A stretch of 64,000 nucleotides of DNA from Rhizobium sp. TH2 (GTDB lineage: Bacteria; Pseudomonadota; Alphaproteobacteria; Rhizobiales; Rhizobiaceae). Of the stretch, positions 11,666-22,371 are shown piece after piece. The number at the start of each line of letters is the position of its first letter. Position 1 is the first letter of the stretch. The stretch lies in assembly GCF_024707525.1 (NCBI RefSeq), contig NZ_CP062231.1, forward strand, positions 186,001 through 250,000, written 5' to 3'. The position numbers and the translations under genes are program-made. The notes beneath the pieces are model-generated. The model did not search any database, had not been told where the DNA came from, and saw only the letters and a list, made by a program, of their open reading frames with translations.

Positions 11666-13348
11666 TCAGATCGCCGAGCGGCGATAGGCTGCCGGATCGG
11701 GGATCGGCACGGCGGCCATCAGTGCCTTGGTATAGTCCTCGCGCGGGCTCTCGAAAATCTCCCGCCGGGTGCCGGATTCCACGATCCGCCCGGCGCGCAT
11801 TACCGCCACCTTGTGCGACATGCGCTCGATCACCGCCATGTCGTGCGAGATGAAGAGATAAGCGAGCCCCATCGTCTCCTGCAGTTCCAGCATCAGGTCC
11901 AGCACGCGGGCGCGCACCGACACATCGAGCGCCGCGACACTCTCATCGGCGACGATCAGCTTCGGCTCCAGTGCTAAGGCCCTCGCGATGCAGATGCGCT
12001 GCCGCTGGCCCCCGGAGAATTCGTGCGGATAGCGGCTCGCCGCATCCGGCGCCAGGCCGACGCGGCGCAGCAATTCGGCAACGCGATCCTGCCGCTCGCT
12101 TTTATTGCCGATGTCGTGGATCACCAGCGGCTCCGCCACCGCCTTGCCGACCGACATGCGCGGATCGAGCGAGGCATAGGGGTCCTGGAAGATCATCTGC
12201 GCCGCGCGCCGCACCGGCTTCATCTCGCGCTGGCTGAGGCCGGCAATGCTGCGGCCGTCGATCTGCACCGAACCGAAAAACGGTATCAGCCCCAGCACCG
12301 CCTTGCCCGTGGTGGATTTGCCCGAGCCGCTCTCACCGACCAGGCCCATCGTCTCTCCGGGCATGATGTCGAACGACACGTCCATCACCGAAGCGGCGGC
12401 CGCCTTGCGCTTGAACAGCAATCCCGTGCCGCTGCTATAGGTCACGCTGAGGTCGCGCACGTTCAACACCGGCGTCTTGCCTGGTGTCGGCAAATGGATC
12501 GCGGACTTCGAGACCCGTGGCGGACCATCCGTGCCGGCATGCGCGCCGAGCCTCGGCACCGCAGCCAGCAACTGCCGCGTATAAAGTTCGCGCGGATGGC
12601 CGAAGATCTCCATCGACGGACCCTGCTCGACGATCCGGCCGTTCTGCATGATCACCACGCGGTCGGCCATCTCGGCCACCACGCCCATGTCATGGGTGAT
12701 CAGGATGATCGAGGTGCCGAACTCCGTTTTCAACCCGCGCATAAGGGTCAGGATCTGCGCCTGTACCGTCACATCGAGCGCGGTGGTCGGCTCGTCGGCG
12801 ATCAGCACCTTGGGCCGGCAGGAAAGCGCCATGGCGATCATCACCCGCTGGCGCATGCCGCCGGAGAGCTCATGCGGATATTGCTTCAGCCGTCGCGCCG
12901 GATCGGTCAGCTGCACCTTATCCAGCATATCGAGTGCGATCGCCTCGGCATCGGCCGAACCCTGATGCTCGCGGATCGCCTCGGTCAGCTGCGCGCCGAT
13001 GCTCATCACGGGATTGAGCGAGGTCATCGGCTCCTGGAAGATCATAGCGGCTTCGCGGCCGCGCACATGCCGCATCGCGCTGTTGGAGAGCCGCGTCAGT
13101 TCCCGCCCATCGAGCCGGATCGAGCCCGACGCGACTTGCAGCGAAGCCTTGGGCAACAATCCCATGATCGAGAGCGAGGTCACGGATTTACCCGAACCGC
13201 TCTCGCCGGCGATGCACAGCGTTTCGCCTGCGAAGAGATCGAAACTGATATCCTCAAGTACGGCTTTGCGGCCTTCAGGCGTCCGTGCATCGACGCTGAG
13301 CTTGTCTACTTTTAGAACCGGCATCCCGGCGGGCATTGCTTCCGTCAC
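11666..13348 (-). CDS. fused two-domain oligopeptide-type ABC ATPase (DppD-DppF fusion)
   Basis: A 560-aa protein with two complete ATPase domains. The first has GESGSGKSVTSLS near residue 55 and a VLIADEPTTALD Walker B. The second has GESGSGKSTTGKAV near residue 345 and LIVADESVAALD. Both carry the signature helix: LSGGMRQRVMIAMAL and FSGGQRQRICIARAL. It energises the permeases and solute-binding protein encoded upstream. It is the last gene of the amide operon, its ATG overlapping the acetamidase stop by 4 nt. In the second Walker B the usual DEP is DES, as in many second domains of this family. Confidence 0.92.
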   Translation of the reverse strand: MTEAMPAGMPVLKVDKLSVDARTPEGRKAVLEDISFDLFAGETLCIAGESGSGKSVTSLSIMGLLPKASLQVASGSIRLDGRELTRLSNSAMRHVRGREAAMIFQEPMTSLNPVMSIGAQLTEAIREHQGSADAEAIALDMLDKVQLTDPARRLKQYPHELSGGMRQRVMIAMALSCRPKVLIADEPTTALDVTVQAQILTLMRGLKTEFGTSIILITHDMGVVAEMADRVVIMQNGRIVEQGPSMEIFGHPRELYTRQLLAAVPRLGAHAGTDGPPRVSKSAIHLPTPGKTPVLNVRDLSVTYSSGTGLLFKRKAAAASVMDVSFDIMPGETMGLVGESGSGKSTTGKAVLGLIPFFGSVQIDGRSIAGLSQREMKPVRRAAQMIFQDPYASLDPRMSVGKAVAEPLVIHDIGNKSERQDRVAELLRRVGLAPDAASRYPHEFSGGQRQRICIARALALEPKLIVADESVAALDVSVRARVLDLMLELQETMGLAYLFISHDMAVIERMSHKVAVMRAGRIVESGTRREIFESPREDYTKALMAAVPIPDPAAYRRSAI

Positions 13349-14289
13349 GCCAGCACGATCCTCGGGAAGTAGAAGGAGACCACCCAGTTCGGCATATCGA
13401 CGATCTCGCTGATCCGGAGGTCGCCGCAGACGGAGCAGAGCATATAGGCATCGACCGCGCTATAGCCATGTTCCGATGTGAGCAGGTCGATCATCCGCAT
13501 CACCGCTTCGCGGGCGCCGGTCATCAGGTCGGGGCCGATGCCGGTCGTGACCTCGTAACCCATGCCATCGAGATGGCGGCTCACCGGCTCGGTCGTCGTG
13601 AAGCGCGGCGTCTTGAGATTGGCGCCTTTCACGAGATCGAGCGTCAGCTCGACATTCATCTGGCTTTCGATCGCGGTGCCGCAGACCTCGCCGTCGCCCT
13701 GCGCGGCATGGGTGTCGCCGACGGAGAACAGTGCGCCTTCGACCTCGATCGGCAGGTAGAGCGTCACGCCTGCTGTCAGGTCACGAATATCCATATTGCC
13801 GCCAACACGCCGCGGCGGGACGACCGAATGCAGGCCCGGCTCGGCCGGCGCTACGCCGATCGTGCCGGCAAAGGGCTTGAGCGGCACCTTACCGCCGGGG
13901 CCATAGGCGGACGGCGCCATCGAGGCCGTGTCATAGGTCCAGACATGCAGTGCCGGATCCTTGAACTGGTCGGCGAGCAGGCCGAAGCCCGGAATGTTTG
14001 CTGTCCATCCCACGCCGGATGGATGGAACTTGTTGATCGTGACCTTCAGCGCATCGCCCGGCTGCGCGCCCTCGACATAGACCGGTCCCGAGACCGGATT
14101 GATCTTGGCGAAATCGAGATTGGCGAGCGTCGCGAGCGTCGCATCCGCGCCCAGCTGTCCGCCGGAGGAATCCATGCATTCGAAGAGGATCGTCTCGCCG
14201 GGCTTGGCGGTCAGCGCGGGCGGGAAATCGCGGTTCCAGCCGAAATTATGCTGGGCCTGGTGGATCGTGTGGTTACAGATGCTGCACAT
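13345..14289 (-). CDS. acetamidase/formamidase family amidohydrolase
   Basis: A 314-aa protein of the FmdA/AmdA family. It starts with HTIHQAQHNFGWNRDFPPALTAKPGETILFECMDSSGGQL. It also has VYVEGAQPGDALKVTI near residue 65 and VPPRRVGGNMDIRDL near residue 155. These enzymes hydrolyse short aliphatic amides to ammonia and the acid in the cytoplasm. It is embedded in an operon with an AmiC-like sensor, an ANTAR regulator and an ABC importer, so it is probably the catabolic enzyme for the imported amide. A stem-loop at 14311-14339 separates it from the upstream solute-binding gene. Formamide versus acetamide preference cannot be read from sequence. Confidence 0.9.
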   Translation of the reverse strand: MCSICNHTIHQAQHNFGWNRDFPPALTAKPGETILFECMDSSGGQLGADATLATLANLDFAKINPVSGPVYVEGAQPGDALKVTINKFHPSGVGWTANIPGFGLLADQFKDPALHVWTYDTASMAPSAYGPGGKVPLKPFAGTIGVAPAEPGLHSVVPPRRVGGNMDIRDLTAGVTLYLPIEVEGALFSVGDTHAAQGDGEVCGTAIESQMNVELTLDLVKGANLKTPRFTTTEPVSRHLDGMGYEVTTGIGPDLMTGAREAVMRMIDLLTSEHGYSAVDAYMLCSVCGDLRISEIVDMPNWVVSFYFPRIVLA

Positions 14290-14354: not shown

Positions 14355-15956
14355 TTACTTCACGAAAATCGCGTCGTAATTGATGACACGGGTCGGATCG
14401 ATATAGATGTTGTCGGCGCCGCCCATGCGAAGCGACTTGGCGACGACACGGCGTTCATTGGTGACGGGGATCCACGGCGCATCCTTCATGGCGTCGGTGA
14501 AGATGCCCTTCCATGCCTCGATGCGTTCGCCGGACTTCGCCGGATCGGACATCGAGTCGGCCGCTACTGCGCGTTTGTCGAGATCGGGGTTGCAATACCA
14601 CGACCAGTTCCAGCCGCCCTGAACCGCGCCGCCGCAGCCCAGGATTGGGCCGTAGAAGTTCGACGGATCCGGGAAGTCGGCGATCCAGGCCATGCCGCCC
14701 GACCAGATCATCGGCGCTTCGCCCTCGGTGCCGCCGGCCGCGATGACATTGCCCTGCGCCAGCGCGCGGATTTCGGCCTTGACGCCAACGGCCGCGAGAT
14801 CCTGCTGGATCGCCTGGGCGATGCGCGGCTGCGGATCGGTGTTGGTGGAGTAAAGCACCGTCTCGAAACCATCCGGCAGGCCGGCCTCGGCGAGCAGAGC
14901 CTTGGCCTTCTCCACACTGTATTCATAGCCGGCATAGTCCTTGTCATAGCCCGGCATCAGCGGCGGCAGCACCTCCTTGGCGGGCGTCGCGCGGCCGTTG
15001 AGAATGCGCACGATGCGTTCCTTGTTGATCGCATGGTTGACAGCCTGGCGGACCTTCAGGTTGTCGAAGGGCTTCACCTTGACGTTCAGCGTCACATAGC
15101 CGGTGTGGAGCTGCTCGCCATCGACGATCATCTGCGCGCCATCGGCCGAGTTCTTGATCTCGAGGAATTTCGCCGGCGGAATGCCATCACCCGCGATATC
15201 CACTTCACCCTTCTGCAGCCGCAGCAGCGCGACCAGCGGCTCCTGGCCGACCTCGACCGTAAAGCTGTCGACCTTCGGCACGTCGGCAACATAGTAGTTC
15301 GGGTTCTTTTCGAACACGAGTTTCTGGCCGATCGTCCAGTCCTTGAGCACGAAGGTGCCGGAGCCAACCGGCTTCTTGCCGAAATCACCGCCGGCGGCTT
15401 CGACCGCTTCCTTCGGCACGACGGAGGCGAAGTTGATCGCCAGTACATGCAGGAAGGTCGCGTCAGGCCGCGAGAGCTTGAAAATCACGGTCGAATCGTC
15501 CGGCGTCTCGATGCCGGGAAGGTCGATCGCTTTGCCTGATGTCAGTTCCGCAAAGCCGTTGATCGCACCGAAGAAGCCGGCGCCAGGGCCTTGCGTCTTT
15601 GGATCGACCGCGCGCTCGATCGAGTATTTCACGTCCGATGCCACGACCTCGCGGCCGTTGGAGAATTTCACGCCCTTGCGGAGCTTGAACGTATAGATCA
15701 AGCCATCGGGCGCCACTTCGAAGCTTTCGGCGAGCGACGGCACGAGGTTCGCGGTGCCCGGTTCATAGTCCATGAGCCGTGAGTAGAGGCTCTTGATCAT
15801 CGACCAGTTGACCCAGTCGTATCCGATGGCCGGGTCGAGCGTGGTGATATCGTCCTTGTAGGTGACGACGATATCCTTGCCTTCGGCGTTTGCGGCGAAT
15901 GGCGAAAGTGCCATCACCAGGGCAGTCGTCGTTCCGAGTAACCAGCGTTTGAACAT
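14355..15956 (-). CDS. periplasmic solute-binding protein of peptide/nickel ABC family
   Basis: A 533-aa SBP_bac_5 protein. It has a signal peptide (MFKRWLLGTTTALVMALSPFAANA), then DIVVTYKDDITTLDPAIGYDW, the canonical Y-x-LRKGVKFSNGREV segment (TFKLRKGVKFSNG, about residue 95), and FDNLKVRQAVNHAINKERIVRIL near residue 300. It captures substrate in the periplasm for the two permeases and fused ATPase of this operon. Given the sensor and amidase partners, the ligand is probably a short amide or amide-containing compound rather than a peptide, which is inference. It lies 25 nt after the upstream permease gene. Confidence 0.92.
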   Translation of the reverse strand: MFKRWLLGTTTALVMALSPFAANAEGKDIVVTYKDDITTLDPAIGYDWVNWSMIKSLYSRLMDYEPGTANLVPSLAESFEVAPDGLIYTFKLRKGVKFSNGREVVASDVKYSIERAVDPKTQGPGAGFFGAINGFAELTSGKAIDLPGIETPDDSTVIFKLSRPDATFLHVLAINFASVVPKEAVEAAGGDFGKKPVGSGTFVLKDWTIGQKLVFEKNPNYYVADVPKVDSFTVEVGQEPLVALLRLQKGEVDIAGDGIPPAKFLEIKNSADGAQMIVDGEQLHTGYVTLNVKVKPFDNLKVRQAVNHAINKERIVRILNGRATPAKEVLPPLMPGYDKDYAGYEYSVEKAKALLAEAGLPDGFETVLYSTNTDPQPRIAQAIQQDLAAVGVKAEIRALAQGNVIAAGGTEGEAPMIWSGGMAWIADFPDPSNFYGPILGCGGAVQGGWNWSWYCNPDLDKRAVAADSMSDPAKSGERIEAWKGIFTDAMKDAPWIPVTNERRVVAKSLRMGGADNIYIDPTRVINYDAIFVK

Positions 15957-15981: not shown

Positions 15982-16902
15982 TCAGGTGGTACGGATGCGC
16001 GGGTCGATGACCGGCGCGATAAGGTCTGCGAGAAGATTGCCGGTCACAATCGCGAGCGCCGAGGTCAGCGTCACGCCCATGATGATGGGAATGTCGACCT
16101 GCTGGATCGCCTGCCAGGCAAGCTGGCCGATGCCGGGCCAGCCATAGACCGCCTCGACCACCACCACGCCGCCCATGAACTGGCCGATATCGATGCCGAT
16201 CATGGCGATGATGGGCAGGATCGCGTTGGGCAGAGCGTGGCGGAAGATGATGCGGGCCGAGGACAGGCCCTTGGCGCGGGCGGTGCGGACATAATCCTGG
16301 TTCAGCACGTCGATCATCGCCGAGCGCACCATGCGGGCATACCAACCGGCGCCGAGTATGCCGAGCGTCATCGCCGGCAGCACGATATGGGAAAAGGTGC
16401 CGTAGCCGCTCATCGGAAACCAGCCGAGCGTGACGGCGAAGAGATAGAGCAGCAAGAGCGCCGCGACGAATTGCGGCGCCGAGACCCCGACGAAGGAGGC
16501 CATCATCACCAGCCGGTCAATGAGGCTGCCGCGCTTGACCGCCGCGATCGTGCCGAACGTGACGCCGAGCACCACCTCGACGAAAATCCCCGCCGCCATC
16601 AGCGTCAGCGTCGCCGGCAGGCGGGCCACGATCAACGTCCAGACCTCGGTTTTCTGGGCATAGGAACGGCCGAGATTGCCCTGCAGCAGCCCCGAGAGAT
16701 AGTTCCAGAACTGTATCAGCAGCGGCTGGTCGAGCCCGAGCTGATGGCGGATCGAGGCGACCGTCTGGGCCGTCGCGCTACGGCCCGCGAGCATCCGTGC
16801 CGGGTCGGCCGGCAGCGCATAGAGCAGCACGAAAGTGATCGCCGCCACGCCGAGCAGGATCAACAATGCCTGTGCCACGCGCTGGAGCAGGAGCGTCACC
16901 AT
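15982..16902 (-). CDS. ABC transporter permease, DppB type
   Basis: A 306-aa inner-membrane permease with six predicted spans. The N-terminal block is LLQRVAQALLILLGVAAITFVLLYALPADPA, and the EAA loop is VRTARAKGLSSARIIFRHALPNAILPI near residue 200. The frame extends upstream, but the family N-terminus begins at the ATG at 16902, which overlaps the stop of the second permease by one base (TGATG). It pairs with the DppC-type permease to form the translocation pore of the amide-operon ABC importer. Confidence 0.92.
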   Translation of the reverse strand: MVTLLLQRVAQALLILLGVAAITFVLLYALPADPARMLAGRSATAQTVASIRHQLGLDQPLLIQFWNYLSGLLQGNLGRSYAQKTEVWTLIVARLPATLTLMAAGIFVEVVLGVTFGTIAAVKRGSLIDRLVMMASFVGVSAPQFVAALLLLYLFAVTLGWFPMSGYGTFSHIVLPAMTLGILGAGWYARMVRSAMIDVLNQDYVRTARAKGLSSARIIFRHALPNAILPIIAMIGIDIGQFMGGVVVVEAVYGWPGIGQLAWQAIQQVDIPIIMGVTLTSALAIVTGNLLADLIAPVIDPRIRTT

Positions 16903-17750
16903 CAGCCCCTCCCGCGCTGGGTGGGATCGAGGATGTCGCGCAATGCATCGCCGACCAGATTGAAGGCGAGGGCGGTGAGCAGAATCACTGCACCTGGGAT
17001 AAACACCAGCCAGGGCGCCGCCTGGAAATAGCTCTGGCTCTCGAAGATGATATTGCCCCAGCTCGGCTGCGGCGGCTGCACACCGATGCCGAGGAACGAC
17101 AGCGTCGCTTCGAGCAACACGGTCGTCGCGATACCAAGCGTGCCCCAGACGATCGCGGTCGGGATCAGGTGCGGCAGGATATGCAGGAAAAGGATGCGGC
17201 CATGTCCTGCGCCGAGCGAACGCTGGGCAAGGATGAAATCCCGCTCTACCAGCCCCCGCGTCTCGGTATAGACGATGCGTGCTACCTGCACCCAGTTGAC
17301 CAGCGCGATCACCATGGCGACGATCCACAGGCTCGGCCTCAGCAGTGCCGCCAGCACGATGGCGAGCAAGAGCGCCGGAAATGCCATCATCAGGTCGGTG
17401 AAACGCATCAATATATTGCCGGCCAGCCCGCGCATGTAGCCGGCAATGATGCCGACCGTCAGCCCGATCGCCACCGCGATGCCATTGGCCACTAGCCCGA
17501 TGATCAGCGAGGTCCGCGCGCCATAGAGCAGCCGGGAAAAGAGGTCGCGGCCGAGCGTATCGGTCCCGAGCATGAACTGCCCGCCCGGCGGCATCGGCGC
17601 GCCTTCAAGCGTCAGCCCGTCGAACATCTGCTCATCCGGATTGAACGGCGCGATCAGAGGTGCCGCGAGCGCCAGCACCACGACGATCACCACCACCGCA
17701 AGCCCGAAAAGCGCGGCCGGCTGGCGCAGCAATGAGCGCACCACGCCCAT
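16902..17750 (-). CDS. ABC transporter permease, DppC type
   Basis: A 282-aa inner-membrane permease with an N-terminal anchor segment (LFGLAVVVIVVVLALAAPLIAPFNPDEQ). The DppC signature follows: FMLGTDTLGRDLFSRLLYGARTSLIIGLVA near residue 60, and an EAA loop (RDFILAQRSLGAGHGRILFLHILPHLIPT) near residue 190. Its start overlaps the ANTAR regulator's stop, and its own stop overlaps the DppB start, all by TGATG, so the block is translationally coupled. Confidence 0.92.
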   Translation of the reverse strand: MGVVRSLLRQPAALFGLAVVVIVVVLALAAPLIAPFNPDEQMFDGLTLEGAPMPPGGQFMLGTDTLGRDLFSRLLYGARTSLIIGLVANGIAVAIGLTVGIIAGYMRGLAGNILMRFTDLMMAFPALLLAIVLAALLRPSLWIVAMVIALVNWVQVARIVYTETRGLVERDFILAQRSLGAGHGRILFLHILPHLIPTAIVWGTLGIATTVLLEATLSFLGIGVQPPQPSWGNIIFESQSYFQAAPWLVFIPGAVILLTALAFNLVGDALRDILDPTQRGRG

Positions 17751-18331
17751 CAGCCAACCTCCGGCAGAGGTTCCGCCCCACCGAGAAAGATCGCCGCGAC
17801 CTGCTCCATGGAGAGCCGTCGCTGCATGGCGCAGTCGCGCAGGATCGCGTAAGCATGTTCCTCGTTGAGCCCGCGCGCTACCATCAGCTTCTCGACCGCA
17901 GCATGAACCAGCGGCCGCATCCGCACGCGTTCTTCGAGATATTGCAGCCGCTCGGTCACCGCCTTGCGTTCCTCATGGATCGATACCGCCATCACCAGCG
18001 CGGGATAGACAGCGGAGGCCGCGACCGGCTTCGGAATGATCGCGCTCGCACCCTGTTTCATCGCCCAGGCAATGCGGCCCGGCGCTTCGGAACCCAGCAA
18101 TGCGACGAGCGGACGATAGGGGGCATCGCCCTCGCCGGGAAGCAGATCGTCCCAGCCCTGGTCGGCATCGACAAGCACGATGTCGGCGCCATCCCAGGTC
18201 GCCAGCGGCTCCCATTGCCGCGTCGCCCTGATGCCGAGCAGGCCGAGCTGGCGCGTTAGCCGCTCGGTATTGGCGTCCTCGCGGTGCAGGATCACGGCAT
18301 GCCAGCCGGTGAAATTCGGCGTCCGGCTCAT
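17750..18331 (-). CDS. AmiR-like ANTAR-domain RNA-binding antitermination regulator
   Basis: A 193-aa protein in two parts. The first is a pseudo-receiver fold (VILHREDANTERLTRQLGLLGI at residue 13, then IVLVDADQGWDD), which lacks the usual phospho-acceptor environment. The second is a C-terminal ANTAR three-helix domain preceded by a coiled coil (RLQYLEERVRMRPLVHAAVEKLMVARGLNEEHAYAILRDCAM). ANTAR proteins bind paired RNA hairpins and prevent terminator formation. In Pseudomonas, AmiR is held inactive by the amide sensor AmiC. Here amiC- and amiR-like genes overlap by 4 nt, and a strong terminator lies in the operon leader (19478-19521), exactly where AmiR would act. Confidence 0.9.
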   Translation of the reverse strand: MSRTPNFTGWHAVILHREDANTERLTRQLGLLGIRATRQWEPLATWDGADIVLVDADQGWDDLLPGEGDAPYRPLVALLGSEAPGRIAWAMKQGASAIIPKPVAASAVYPALVMAVSIHEERKAVTERLQYLEERVRMRPLVHAAVEKLMVARGLNEEHAYAILRDCAMQRRLSMEQVAAIFLGGAEPLPEVG

Positions 18332-19461
18332 GACACCACCCTCAGCTTCGCGGGCATCTGCGTGCCGCGCGTGGTGAGATAGGGGTCGGCGGCAAGCGCC
18401 GGCCGCGAGGCGATCACGTCGAAGCCTTGGTCAGCATTGATGCGTCCGAGGTGGAAGGGCAGGGCGGCATGGTTGGTGACGCTGTCCACGTCAAGCGGAC
18501 CGAACAGCGACGGCCACTGCCGCGCATGCACCTCGCGCCGCACCGCCTGCGGTTCGTCGCTGCCCGCCGCAACGATCGCGCCGATGCAGAGATCGACGGC
18601 GGTATAGGCGCTGGCGAAGACGCTGGAAATCCGCCGCTCGCGGCCGTGGCGCAGCGCCGCCCGCGCCTTGAATTCGCGATTCTCCGGCGTATCGAGATTG
18701 TCGAAATAGGAGGCCGCGCAGAGCTGTCCCAGGGCGGAGCCCGCCGTGATGTCGTCGAGCTCGCATTCCATCAGGTCGCAACTCACGACAGGGCAGTTCT
18801 CCGGGCGGAAGGCCGGATCCCGGTCGCCGAGCACCTTCATCGCTTCGAGGAAAGCATAGCTCGATGGTCCGATCAGGTTGTTGAGCACGAAGCTCGGTCG
18901 CCGCTCGGCGATCTCGGCGATGATCCGCTCGACGGCGGTCTCTTCGAGCGGCAAATACCGTTCGCCCAGCACCTCGCCGCCGGCATTGGTGATCAGTTCG
19001 CGCGCCAGCCGGTTCATTTCCCAGCCCCAGACATAATTGGCGCCGGTCAGATACGGCCGCGCTCCGTAACGCGGGATCAGATATTCGAAGGCCGGGATCA
19101 GGTGCTGGTTGGGGCAGCCGCCGAGATAGATCACGTTCTCGTTGGCCTCGAACCCTTCGTATGGGCACATATACCAGAGTAGGCCGTCGTGTTTCTCGAC
19201 GAGCGGGATCACTTCCTTGCGTGCAGCCGAGGTGATCGTGCCGACAATGTGCCGGCAACCTTCTCGCAACAGGTGCCGCGCGCCGTCGAGATAGGCTTCG
19301 AGACTGGCATGCGGGTCAAAGAAGACGGGCTCGATCAGCCGGTCGGATCGCTTGGCAAATTCCTCGATCGCGAATTCCGCGCCGTCATGCGCATCCCGTC
19401 CCATCGAGCCGTAAGGCCCGGTGGTGGAATAGAGAATGCCGATCTTCAGCGGTTCGCTCAT
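18328..19461 (-). CDS. AmiC-like cytoplasmic amide sensor (periplasmic-binding-protein fold)
   Basis: A 377-aa type I binding-protein fold without a signal peptide: MSEPLKIGILYSTTGPYGSMGRDAHDGAEFAIEEF, CPNQHLIPAFEYLIPRYGARPYLTGANYVWGWEMNR near residue 125. It resembles AmiC and UrtA-type sensors. AmiC binds short amides and releases AmiR. The longer upstream frame (to 19617) reads through the promoter and leader terminator and is not coding. The ATG at 19461 is preceded by GGAAGA. It is the first gene of a seven-gene operon for amide sensing, uptake and hydrolysis. Confidence 0.9.
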   Translation of the reverse strand: MSEPLKIGILYSTTGPYGSMGRDAHDGAEFAIEEFAKRSDRLIEPVFFDPHASLEAYLDGARHLLREGCRHIVGTITSAARKEVIPLVEKHDGLLWYMCPYEGFEANENVIYLGGCPNQHLIPAFEYLIPRYGARPYLTGANYVWGWEMNRLARELITNAGGEVLGERYLPLEETAVERIIAEIAERRPSFVLNNLIGPSSYAFLEAMKVLGDRDPAFRPENCPVVSCDLMECELDDITAGSALGQLCAASYFDNLDTPENREFKARAALRHGRERRISSVFASAYTAVDLCIGAIVAAGSDEPQAVRREVHARQWPSLFGPLDVDSVTNHAALPFHLGRINADQGFDVIASRPALAADPYLTTRGTQMPAKLRVVS

Positions 19462-19477
19462 CCATCTTCCAAACACG

Positions 19478-19521
19478 AAAAACCCCACGACGCTGGTCCG
19501 CGAAGCGCGGGCGTCATGGGG
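19478..19521 (-). terminator. leader attenuator terminator of amide operon
   Basis: On the minus strand, an 11-bp outer stem (CCCCATGACGC with GCGTCGTGGGG, a single A-C mismatch) encloses an inner CCGCG-CTT-CGCGG hairpin and is followed at once by TTTTT. This is an intrinsic terminator placed between the operon promoter (19589-19617) and the amiC-like start (19461). It would stop transcription unless antiterminated, and the ANTAR protein encoded in the operon is the obvious antiterminator. Confidence 0.8.
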
Positions 19522-19532
19522 CGAAACTGCCC
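19519..19532 (-). promoter_or_regulatory. hexaloop hairpin overlapping the attenuator, candidate ANTAR binding site
   Basis: In the transcript GGGC-AGTUUC-GCCC forms a 4-bp stem with a six-base loop starting with A. Its 3' arm shares bases 19519-19521 with the 5' arm of the terminator, so the two are mutually exclusive. ANTAR targets are paired hexaloop hairpins with conserved A1 and G4 (recalled). The G4 is not present here, so the assignment is tentative. Confidence 0.4.
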
Positions 19533-19543
19533 TGCGACTATCG

Positions 19544-19567
19544 AAGTCATGTGGTCGCGGATGACTT
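19544..19567 (-). repeat. inverted repeat in amide-operon leader
   Basis: A perfect 7-bp inverted repeat, AAGTCAT with ATGACTT, separated by 10 nt, just upstream of the hexaloop hairpin and downstream of the predicted transcription start. A smaller GCCT/AGGC hairpin lies at 19570-19584. Either could be the first of the two stem-loops expected for ANTAR recognition. Confidence 0.4.
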
Positions 19568-19588
19568 TTGCCTAATCCGCAGGCGTGA

Positions 19589-19617
19589 TTAAAATACAGA
19601 CATTCGCCGGGTGTCAA
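19589..19617 (-). promoter_or_regulatory. sigma70-type promoter of amide operon
   Basis: TTGACA (19617-19612 on the minus strand) is a perfect -35. After 17 bp follows TTTTAA (19594-19589) as -10. The predicted start near 19582 gives a leader of about 120 nt containing the hairpins and attenuator described here. A near-consensus constitutive promoter fits control by attenuation rather than by activation. Confidence 0.75.
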
Positions 19618-19644: not shown

Positions 19645-20319
19645 CTATCCGACGCGCCGCTCCACCGTCAACTGGCCGTTGTCGCTAGTCGAGATCGTGA
19701 TGCCGACATAGTCGCCGGTCGTCGCATGCGGCGTGTCCATCGGATGGCCATGGGTCGCGGTGATCACCATCACGTCTGCGCCCGCCGCCTCGGCGGCTGC
19801 GATTCCGGCCGGTGCGTCCTCGAACACCAGGCAGTCGCTCGCCTTGACACCCAGCCGTTCGGCCGCGAGCAGGAAGCAATCCGGCGCAGGTTTGCCGCGC
19901 GTTACATCCTCGGCGGTCACAATATGCTTCGGCACGGCGATCCCCGCAGCCGCCAGTCGCGCAGCCGCCAGTTCCTTCGTCGCCGATGTCACGATCGACC
20001 AGCGGTCCTGCGGCAAAGCATTGAGAAACTCGATGATACCGTCGATCGCCATGACACCATCGACATCGTCGATCTCGGCTTGCATCACCCAGGCCACTTC
20101 CTTGGCCACGTCGATGCCGGCCAGGTTCTGTTTACGGATCGTGTCCTCGGCCCTAACGCCGTGCATCGTCGGCAGGAATTTTTCGACATCGATTCCGTGG
20201 CTGCGCGCCCATGTGCTCCACACCCGTTCGGCGGCCGCGATGGAGCTGAGCAGCGTTCCATCCATGTCGAACAGGAAGGCGGCATAGGATTTGCGGAAAA
20301 TGGGCGGCAGGTCGGTCAA
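19645..20319 (-). CDS. HAD-superfamily phosphatase (beta-phosphoglucomutase/glycerol-phosphatase-like)
   Basis: A 224-aa HAD hydrolase: motif I FLFDMDGTLLSS with the DxD nucleophile pair, motif II VTSATKE, and motifs III/IV GKPAPDCFLLAAERLGV and CLVFEDAPAGIAAAEAAGA. It dephosphorylates a small sugar or polyol phosphate, substrate unassigned. I prefer the TTG at 20319, with GAGGAA seven bases upstream. An ATG at 20361 would add 14 residues (238 aa). It is divergent from ridA and lies just upstream of the amide operon promoter. Confidence 0.85.
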   Translation of the reverse strand: MTDLPPIFRKSYAAFLFDMDGTLLSSIAAAERVWSTWARSHGIDVEKFLPTMHGVRAEDTIRKQNLAGIDVAKEVAWVMQAEIDDVDGVMAIDGIIEFLNALPQDRWSIVTSATKELAAARLAAAGIAVPKHIVTAEDVTRGKPAPDCFLLAAERLGVKASDCLVFEDAPAGIAAAEAAGADVMVITATHGHPMDTPHATTGDYVGITISTSDNGQLTVERRVG

Positions 20320-20440
20320 AGGCTTGTTCCTCGTGAAGGGATGTGAGATGGCAGCCAGCATGCGGCCTCGTCAAGCCACGAGGTCGCGCCAAAGGGCGTC
20401 ACCGCGATGCCGATCGACAATTCTTTTGTGGGAGAATTCC

Positions 20441-21420: not shown

Positions 21421-22371
21421 GTGACACGCAGCTTCGCCATCCTGATCTTCCCCGATTTCCCGATGATGGCCTTCTCGTCGGTCATCGAACCACTGCGCGC
21501 TGCCAACAAGCTGTCGGGCGAAGCGCTCTACGAATGGTCGATCATCGGCGGCGAAAAAGGCATCATCCGCGCATCGAGCGGCATTGCCGTGACACCGGAT
21601 TACTCGGCCCATAACGCCCCCGCCGTCGACTACATCGTCGTCTGCTCTGGTGGCGACGCCGACCGGCTGCAGGCGCCGCAGCCCCTCAACTGGATTCGCA
21701 AGAACCTCCGCAATGGCGCCCATCTCGGCAGTGTTGCCGATGGCGCCTTCTATCTCGGCCGCGCCGGCCTGCTCGATGGCTATGCCTGCACCTTGCACTG
21801 GCAGAGCCAGCCGGCCTTCGCCGAAGCCTTTCCGGAGGTCAAGCTGGTGCGCGACATCTACGTCATCGACCGCACCCGTTTCACCTCGGCGGGCGGCATC
21901 GGCGCTTTCGACATGATGCTCGATCTCATCGGCCGCCAACATGGCGAGGCGCTCTGTCGTGGTGTCGCCGAATGGTTCGTGCATGACCGCATCCGCGCCT
22001 CCACCGATCGCGAGCGGCTGCAGCTTCGCCTGCGCACCGGCATCCGCGACGATCTCGTGCTCGATGCCGTCGCCCATCTTGAAGCAGGCGGGGAGGGGCA
22101 GGTCCTGATCTCGACTGTCGCCGACCGGCTCGGCGTCACCATCGAACGGCTGGAGCGCGCCTTCCGCGCCGAGGTCGGTCTCCTGCCGGCGGAATATTTC
22201 AAGCGCATGAAATTGCAGCGCGCCCGCGACCTGCTCGAACATTCCGCCATGTCGGTGCGGGAGATCGGGCTGGCCAGCGGCTACCAGAGTTTCTCGGCCT
22301 TCGTGCGCGCCTTCCGTACAGTTTACGGCAAGACCCCGGGTCAGGTCCGCCGTGTGGTGGGTGAAAGGTAA
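21421..22371 (+). CDS. GlxA-family transcriptional regulator (DJ-1/PfpI + AraC HTH)
   Basis: A 316-aa regulator with an N-terminal DJ-1/PfpI amidotransferase-like domain (residues ~5-170: FAILIFPDFPMMAFSSVIEPLRAANKL, IGAFDMMLDLI). A C-terminal AraC double helix-turn-helix follows (LGVTIERLERAFRAEVGLLPAEYFKRMKLQRARDLL, MSVREIGLASGYQSFSAFVRAFRTVYGKTPGQVRR). Relatives control glycine betaine, carnitine and arginine use. It starts with GTG and lies 82 bp upstream of the M24/isochorismatase genes in the same direction, so it probably regulates them. Confidence 0.9.
   Translation: MTRSFAILIFPDFPMMAFSSVIEPLRAANKLSGEALYEWSIIGGEKGIIRASSGIAVTPDYSAHNAPAVDYIVVCSGGDADRLQAPQPLNWIRKNLRNGAHLGSVADGAFYLGRAGLLDGYACTLHWQSQPAFAEAFPEVKLVRDIYVIDRTRFTSAGGIGAFDMMLDLIGRQHGEALCRGVAEWFVHDRIRASTDRERLQLRLRTGIRDDLVLDAVAHLEAGGEGQVLISTVADRLGVTIERLERAFRAEVGLLPAEYFKRMKLQRARDLLEHSAMSVREIGLASGYQSFSAFVRAFRTVYGKTPGQVRRVVGER

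Follow-up and report, generated by a model that had tools for sequence, protein, structure and literature searches.

A conserved, probable ANTAR antitermination leader, with a hexaloop lacking G4, ahead of an AmiC-AmiR-like amide operon in Rhizobium sp. TH2

The operon and the layout of its leader

The window, that is, the whole stretch of DNA analysed, covers 64,000 nucleotides of Rhizobium sp. TH2 (contig NZ_CP062231.1, positions 186,001 to 250,000), and carries an amide operon on its minus strand (Table 1). The gene for an AmiC-like sensor stands first and is adjacent to the gene for an AmiR-like protein, in the same operon and on the same strand; transporter genes and an amidase gene follow. 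The AmiR-like protein scores 36.4 bits against PF21332 and 41.4 bits against PF03861 (cut-offs 27 and 27.3). An earlier claim that the operon encodes an ANTAR protein together with an AmiC-like sensor is confirmed by the Pfam domains and by the matches to the structures 1qo0 and 1pea. Aligned to AmiC (1pea), the sensor keeps Ser85 and Tyr104 and has Ile for Tyr83 and Cys for Thr106, four residues of AmiC which we take to line the ligand pocket. The FmdA_AmdA-type protein scores 139.5 against the NCBIfam formamidase equivalog, below the cut-off of 500.

Table 1. Operon genes and leader elements, in window coordinates
Feature	Positions	Strand	Evidence or remark
-35 TTGACA	19612..19617	-	direct reading; perfect hexamer
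-10 region TATTTTAA (TATTTT at 15 nt or TTTTAA at 17 nt)	19589..19596	-	direct reading; near-invariant in alignment
5' element P0	19557..19584	-	arms GCGGAU 19580-19575 and AUCCGC 19562-19557; covariation
Second possible P0 helix GCCU/AGGC	19584-19570	-	by eye, several mismatches
ACAU directly 5' of P1	19549..19552	-	ACAT at most 8 nt ahead of P1 in 74/100 leaders with called P1
Hairpin P1 GACU-UCGAU-AGUC	19536..19548	-	97.4% of cells paired (62 leaders)
Hairpin P2 GGGC-AGUUUC-GCCC, putative antiterminator	19519..19532	-	loop 19528-19523; 100% of cells paired (62 leaders)
Intrinsic terminator stem-loop	19483..19521	-	arms 19521-19511 and 19493-19483; -28.8 kcal/mol
U-tract (UUUUU)	19478..19482	-	ends 16 nt ahead of amiC ATG
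amiC-like sensor gene	18328..19461	-	Pfam PF13433; AmiC structure 1pea, E 2.3e-43
AmiR-like gene, AmiR_N + ANTAR domain	17750..18331	-	PF03861, PF21332; AmiR structure 1qo0, E 1.1e-9
ABC permease (BPD_transp_1, OppC_N)	16902..17750	-	Pfam
ABC permease (BPD_transp_1)	15982..16905	-	Pfam
Family-5 extracellular solute-binding protein	14355..15956	-	PF00496, 335.6 bits
FmdA_AmdA-type acetamidase/formamidase	13345..14289	-	PF03069, 218.5 bits
Double ABC ATPase, peptide-transporter type	11666..13348	-	Pfam

The start of the amiC-like gene is the ATG at 19461; the TTG at 19617 given in the list of open reading frames falls inside the promoter. Between these two points the minus strand carries, in order, the promoter-like sequence, P0, P1, the linker GCA, P2, the terminator, the U-tract and the ATG of amiC. 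A consensus promoter TTGACA-N17-TTTTAA had been proposed for this region. Its -35 hexamer is indeed perfect, while the -10 element is weaker than claimed, since TTTTAA (17-nt spacer) agrees with TATAAT at 3/6 positions and the alternative TATTTT (15-nt spacer) at 4/6; the leader promoter of the window is not among the sites listed by a promoter scan. In the alignment described below, TTGAC followed by 14-16 nt and one of eight A/T-rich forms occurs in 61/62 leaders (L085 is without it), the spacer behind TTGAC being 15 nt in 54, 14 nt in 6 and 16 nt in 1. The element is treated as a promoter-like sequence with a weak -10 and a putative transcription start.

The terminator consists of the arms CCCCAUGACGC ... 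GCGUCGUGGGG followed by UUUUU, and its first bases double as the 3' arm of P2. The hexaloop hairpin and the hairpin-TTTTT terminator of the preliminary description are both present, and their predicted mutual exclusion follows from the bases 19521-19519, which belong to P2 and to the terminator alike. Computed energies amount to -10.5 kcal/mol for P1 and P2 together and -28.8 kcal/mol for the full terminator, and as long as the 3' arm of the terminator is still unmade, P1 and P2 are predicted to pair with a probability of 0.95-0.99. By computed energy the terminator outweighs P1 and P2, yet these are predicted to fold first, an arrangement that fits a switch whose default state is off. The leader folds with a z of -2.41 (4/200 shuffles are equally good), and 3 terminator-like sites lie within 1.1 kb against 0.9 expected.

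Measured against known ANTAR targets, the leader has two adjacent hairpins of at least 3 pairs each, joined by a linker, the second of which overlaps an intrinsic terminator. P2 has a hexaloop with A at loop position 1 (A1); the P1 loop of the window (UCGAU) has 5 nt and no A1. A 7-bp inverted repeat (AAGTCAT/ATGACTT) pointed out earlier does exist in the window, but only in the window's own leader (1/62), and it is dropped as a conserved leader element; the conserved hairpins upstream of P2 are P1 and P0.

Conservation of the leader and the attenuator reading

The alignment comprises 62 of the 70 different leaders listed, 8 divergent Mesorhizobium leaders being left out, and extends from the -10 through the U-tract. 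P1 and P2 together are paired in 98.7% of cells and show 6 two-sided changes against 0.7 in shuffles. The terminator helix is paired in 95.9% of cells, with two-sided changes at 4/11 pairs, and together with P1 it reaches 96.3% of cells and 19 two-sided changes against 3.3 in shuffles. These counts are not probabilities, because the leader sequences are related. In number of pair types the two sets exceed their shuffles only slightly, the observed values being reached by 35 and 48 of 500. Two terminator pairs fail in 11/62 and 12/62 leaders. When the terminator partners are slid by 3 columns, 14 two-sided changes remain, but only 42% of cells are paired. In 10/60 scored leaders the base common to P2 and the terminator reads T where the others have C; an A faces it in P2 in 3 of these, in the terminator in 3 and in both in 1, with G-U pairs in the rest. 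The RNAalifold consensus shows the terminator together with a hairpin of 3 pairs that corresponds to neither P1 nor P2. A lack of conservation had been named beforehand as a ground for giving up the attenuator; conservation and covariation were found instead over the 62 leaders, and on this comparison of sequences they are a stronger argument than the chance tests on folding and terminators.

A covariance search of such leaders had also been suggested. The model R1, built from the 62 leaders, matches 12/297 genomes of the order, and in 12/12 loci AmiC-like and ANTAR reading frames adjoin the site. Ten of the 12 genomes lie outside the training family, in six other families; two (G000 and G128) are in the training set. 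R1 is not sensitive, several AmiC-ANTAR loci from another search not being among its matches. Three AmiC-ANTAR loci (L178, L179, L185) have no such leader by eye. The operon itself is well kept. In 61 relatives' loci, gathered through the ANTAR protein, each operon gene is found in 61/61, except the double ATPase with 60/61, and the first permease starts at most 300 bases from the usual ANTAR end in 60/61; the remaining locus (L058), shorter and with other coordinates, is unscored. An ortholog also lies on pRL11 of R. johnstonii 3841 (L064).

Taken together, the AmiR_N+ANTAR and AmiC-like genes behind the leader, the exclusion between P2 and the terminator and the linkage seen with R1 make an ANTAR attenuator the best reading, in agreement with what had first been proposed. 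With a probability of roughly 0.86, the leader is an ANTAR antitermination leader through which the operon controls itself, protein binding and read-through being predicted from sequence.

In the mechanism envisaged, the AmiC-like protein would hold the AmiR-like protein inactive as long as inducer is missing; the nascent RNA would then refold from P2 to the terminator, and most transcripts would stop ahead of amiC. Binding of an inducing amide to AmiC would release AmiR, whose ANTAR dimer would settle on P1 and/or P2 and keep the 5' arm of the terminator in P2. The polymerase could then transcribe the genes for sensor, antiterminator, transporter and amidase, which amounts to positive feedback. 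The holding of AmiR by AmiC until an amide binds, and that of P2 by the released AmiR, are carried over from the AmiC-AmiR system of Pseudomonas aeruginosa; acetamide as the inducer is a guess.

The antitermination mechanism as such is already known, and the target is a divergent variant. As in P. aeruginosa, an AmiC-like sensor and an AmiR_N+ANTAR antiterminator occur in an amide operon, and hairpins accompany an intrinsic terminator as in the amiE leader. Compared by description, the amiE leader has A1 and G at loop position 4 (G4) in both loops (PMC3369931, PMC3369936), whereas in the window A1 is confined to P2, which lacks G4, and the loop of P1 has 5 nt. The gene order differs likewise from the one named amiECBRS in PMC3369936, amiC and amiR coming first here and the amidase last. 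With the dual-hexaloop targets of EutV and NasR the leader shares the succession of P1, linker and P2 and the overlap of the 3' arm of P2 with the 5' arm of the terminator; unlike them, it has no G4 in P2, and most related leaders lack a hexaloop P1.

The P2 loop and its possible reading by the ANTAR domain

Canonical ANTAR targets are described as a pair of hexaloops, each with A1 and G4; mutation of A1 or G4 weakened induction by EutV (PMC3369931). According to the same account, the first genome-wide search started from a seed in which A1 and G4 were retained in both loops; an actinobacterial search is described as allowing one point variation (PMC8164766). The preliminary description had remarked that the hexaloop lacks G4 and may be a variant target. 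The absence of G4 holds for the whole group: among the 11 forms of the P2 loop in the 62 leaders, A1 is present in 62/62 and G4 in 0/62.

A wider set was obtained with a leader finder applied to 191 ANTAR hits (many repeated) and 10 loci from the R1 search. Of the distinct leaders that it lists ahead of amiC, 105/108 have A1 and 7/108 have G4, or 4/105 once three doubtful rows (L133, L167 and the second L214 hit) are dropped. As the finder is restricted to loops of 6 nt with GGC/GCC closure ahead of a terminator, the size of the P2 loop in this count is fixed beforehand. Leaders of L027, L030, L031 and of the L187 type, visible by eye, sit in the finder list only under another locus name. Position 2 of the P2 loop is a purine in 95/108, and position 5 is G in 21/40 distinct loops. 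P1 was called in 100/108 leaders, with a loop of 5 nt in 47/100 and of 6 nt in 19/100 and a P1-P2 linker of 3 nt in 65/100; these lengths are approximate, because the routine sometimes picks a shorter loop inside a longer stem.

A second class of attenuators lies downstream of amiR (22 rows from 145 distinct ANTAR contexts, including L182, which is probably spurious). It likewise has an AmiR_N+ANTAR regulator and a GGC/AGC-hexaloop-GCC/GCT hairpin that overlaps a terminator, but its P2 loop carries G4 in 19/22 rows and A1 in 5/22, and it occupies a separate side of the regulator tree. The attenuator stands between amiR and the next gene (L096, L099, L100, L101, L104, L105, L107, L125, L129, L139 and others), and its P2 loops, for example UAUGUA, UGUGCA and UAUGCA, have G4 and mostly U1 and A6. 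One or two upstream hexaloop hairpins are visible by eye, with A1 and G4 in L096, L100, L107 and L137.

In the tree of regulators (116 sequences thinned to 73, with an outgroup added and the doubtful rows removed), the kinds upstream of amiC and downstream of amiR need one change, on a branch with support 96/88. G4 occurs in 16/17 of the downstream kind and 4/56 of the upstream kind, and the window belongs to a clade of 32 rows that includes none of the four exceptions (L124, L147, L148, L150); L124, L150 and L174 are long branches. Since G4 is absent in 62/62 and a single change suffices in the tree, its absence is, on these comparisons, a conserved old trait of this subfamily and not the mutation of one strain.

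How the protein might read such a loop can be judged from the EutV complex, in which, according to PMC8934654, loop base G4 stacks on a tyrosine of the protein, Lys149 contacts G4, and A1 has no specific contact. In the numbering of that paper, the ANTAR domain of the window keeps Arg142, Glu160, Tyr164, Arg168, Met172 and Arg175; it departs from EutV by Lys143Pro, Lys147Ala, Lys149Val, Asn173Gln and Arg177Ser, and thereby loses three RNA-contact lysines. A subfamily with A1, without G4 and mostly with a 5-nt loop in P1 suggests that its ANTAR domain should read hairpins partly unlike those of EutV and NasR. Tentatively, and with a chance a little short of even, this subfamily of AmiR-type ANTAR proteins would read another code, consisting of an A1-purine2 hexaloop without G4 and a P1 with 5-nt loop preceded by ACAU, orthogonal to A1/G4 targets.

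Against this stands the idea that the protein binds as EutV does and that G4 has become dispensable in the lineage, with no new code involved. The six retained EutV residues and the minority of related leaders that do have G4 (the 7/108 and 4/56 above) speak for it, whereas the uniform want of G4 in the alignment, together with A1 in 105/108, suggests that a particular loop is under selection rather than loosely constrained, and the Pro, Ala, Val and Ser that replace Lys143, Lys147, Lys149 and Arg177 are not those of EutV; its chance, too, is put somewhat below even. No single ANTAR position explains the loop type. Lys149 as the sole switch between G4 and non-G4 loops is discarded, as G4 loops occur in 8/10 rows with Lys149 and in 11/12 with Val, Thr, Ile or Ser there, L182 being the sole non-G4 row among the latter.

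The leaders form a large conserved set, beside their own ANTAR genes, with A1 and without G4. If they are bound, recognition by A1 and G4 is not a universal rule, and searches that rely on it would tend to miss this group. With one natural class that has A1 but no G4 and another that has G4 mostly without A1, the way in which ANTAR domains read RNA can be tested directly. The literature searches turned up no account of such targets as a class, though single loci may be listed in supplementary tables or in papers on AmiR; the main text of PMC3369931 contains no word starting with 'rhizob'.

Another code, if true, would insulate several ANTAR regulators in one genome from each other. The genome of the window has two further ANTAR genes. 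One (L157 and L002; C2, ANTAR 207525-207683, minus strand) belongs to a second AmiC-like and AmiR-type pair, of stronger AmiR_N type and with Gln at EutV Met172; no attenuator was found downstream of this pair. The third ANTAR (L191, in C1:2936000-2946000; ANTAR 2940400-2940558) has the canonical contacts Arg142, Lys143 and Lys149. In the same genome, GGCANNGNNGCC followed by a T-run matches 14 times (at 12 sites) and the reversed pattern 6 times, as strings only. Around the other two ANTAR genes, dual A1/G4 hexaloops amount to four pairs in one stretch, none of them ahead of a terminator by eye, and neither the pattern search nor the dual-hexaloop search found the RNA targets of L191. These searches yield no confirmed case of canonical and variant targets coexisting in this genome.

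The 5' element and the remaining explanations

Upstream of P1, the element P0 is less regular than the hairpins, with 68.8% of cells paired and 21 two-sided changes against 7.9 in shuffles. CUGC lies downstream of a GCAG arm in 7/7 leaders and of a GCGG arm in 5/41, neither arm being present in 14/62 (Fisher 1e-5, relatedness ignored). P0 adjoins the strongly conserved GAUUAGGCA and possibly forms a pseudoknot or two exclusive hairpins. A second signal could act through it, as a riboswitch, a site for another RNA-binding protein or a DNA operator at the transcription start, alone or besides the ANTAR protein. Its covariation and the neighbouring GAUUAGGCA, which the cited descriptions of plain ANTAR leaders do not mention, are in keeping with this. 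However, pairing fails in about 31% of cells, and the 3' arm is missing in three aligned leaders (L084, L045, L012) that retain P1, P2 and the terminator. Nor does Rfam 15 contain a match to the leader (E up to 5; two weak matches lie elsewhere in 7 kb) or, up to an E of 0.5, to 11 related loci. A second signal through P0 is considered improbable.

The ANTAR attenuator also has to be set against a plain terminator of the HAD gene (19645-20361) upstream on the same strand, with amiC unregulated. The leader is kept in relatives in whose loci this gene is found in 0/61 (the L058 locus holds only 484 upstream bases), and with the operon kept and the HAD gene not found, the leader evidently travels with the operon; moreover, the U-tract ends 16 nt ahead of the ATG, and promoter-like sequence precedes the terminator. 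This very improbable explanation is rejected. It is just as hard to credit that another of the three ANTAR proteins encoded in the genome, rather than that of the operon, binds the leader: two such candidates do exist, but the R1 sites stand beside AmiC-like and ANTAR genes without exception, and R1 finds a single site in this genome, namely the leader of the window. Least likely of all, and likewise rejected, is attenuation by a leader peptide from a 30-codon frame (19461-19552) opening at the AUG ahead of P1, since despite a conserved ACAUG and a stop that overlaps the amiC start at ATGA in the window, no ribosome-binding site is evident by eye and the frame is not kept over the 62 leaders (60/62 are readable; its length varies from 8 to 33 codons, the commonest being 11 in 10 leaders, 25 in 8 and 32 in 7, and it runs on in 18).

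Elsewhere in the window, on the plus strand between 22454 and 24438, reading frames resembling an M24-type peptidase or creatinase and an isochorismatase-family hydrolase are seen by eye behind an AraC-type regulator (21421-22371, Pfam), a putative neighbouring catabolic cluster.
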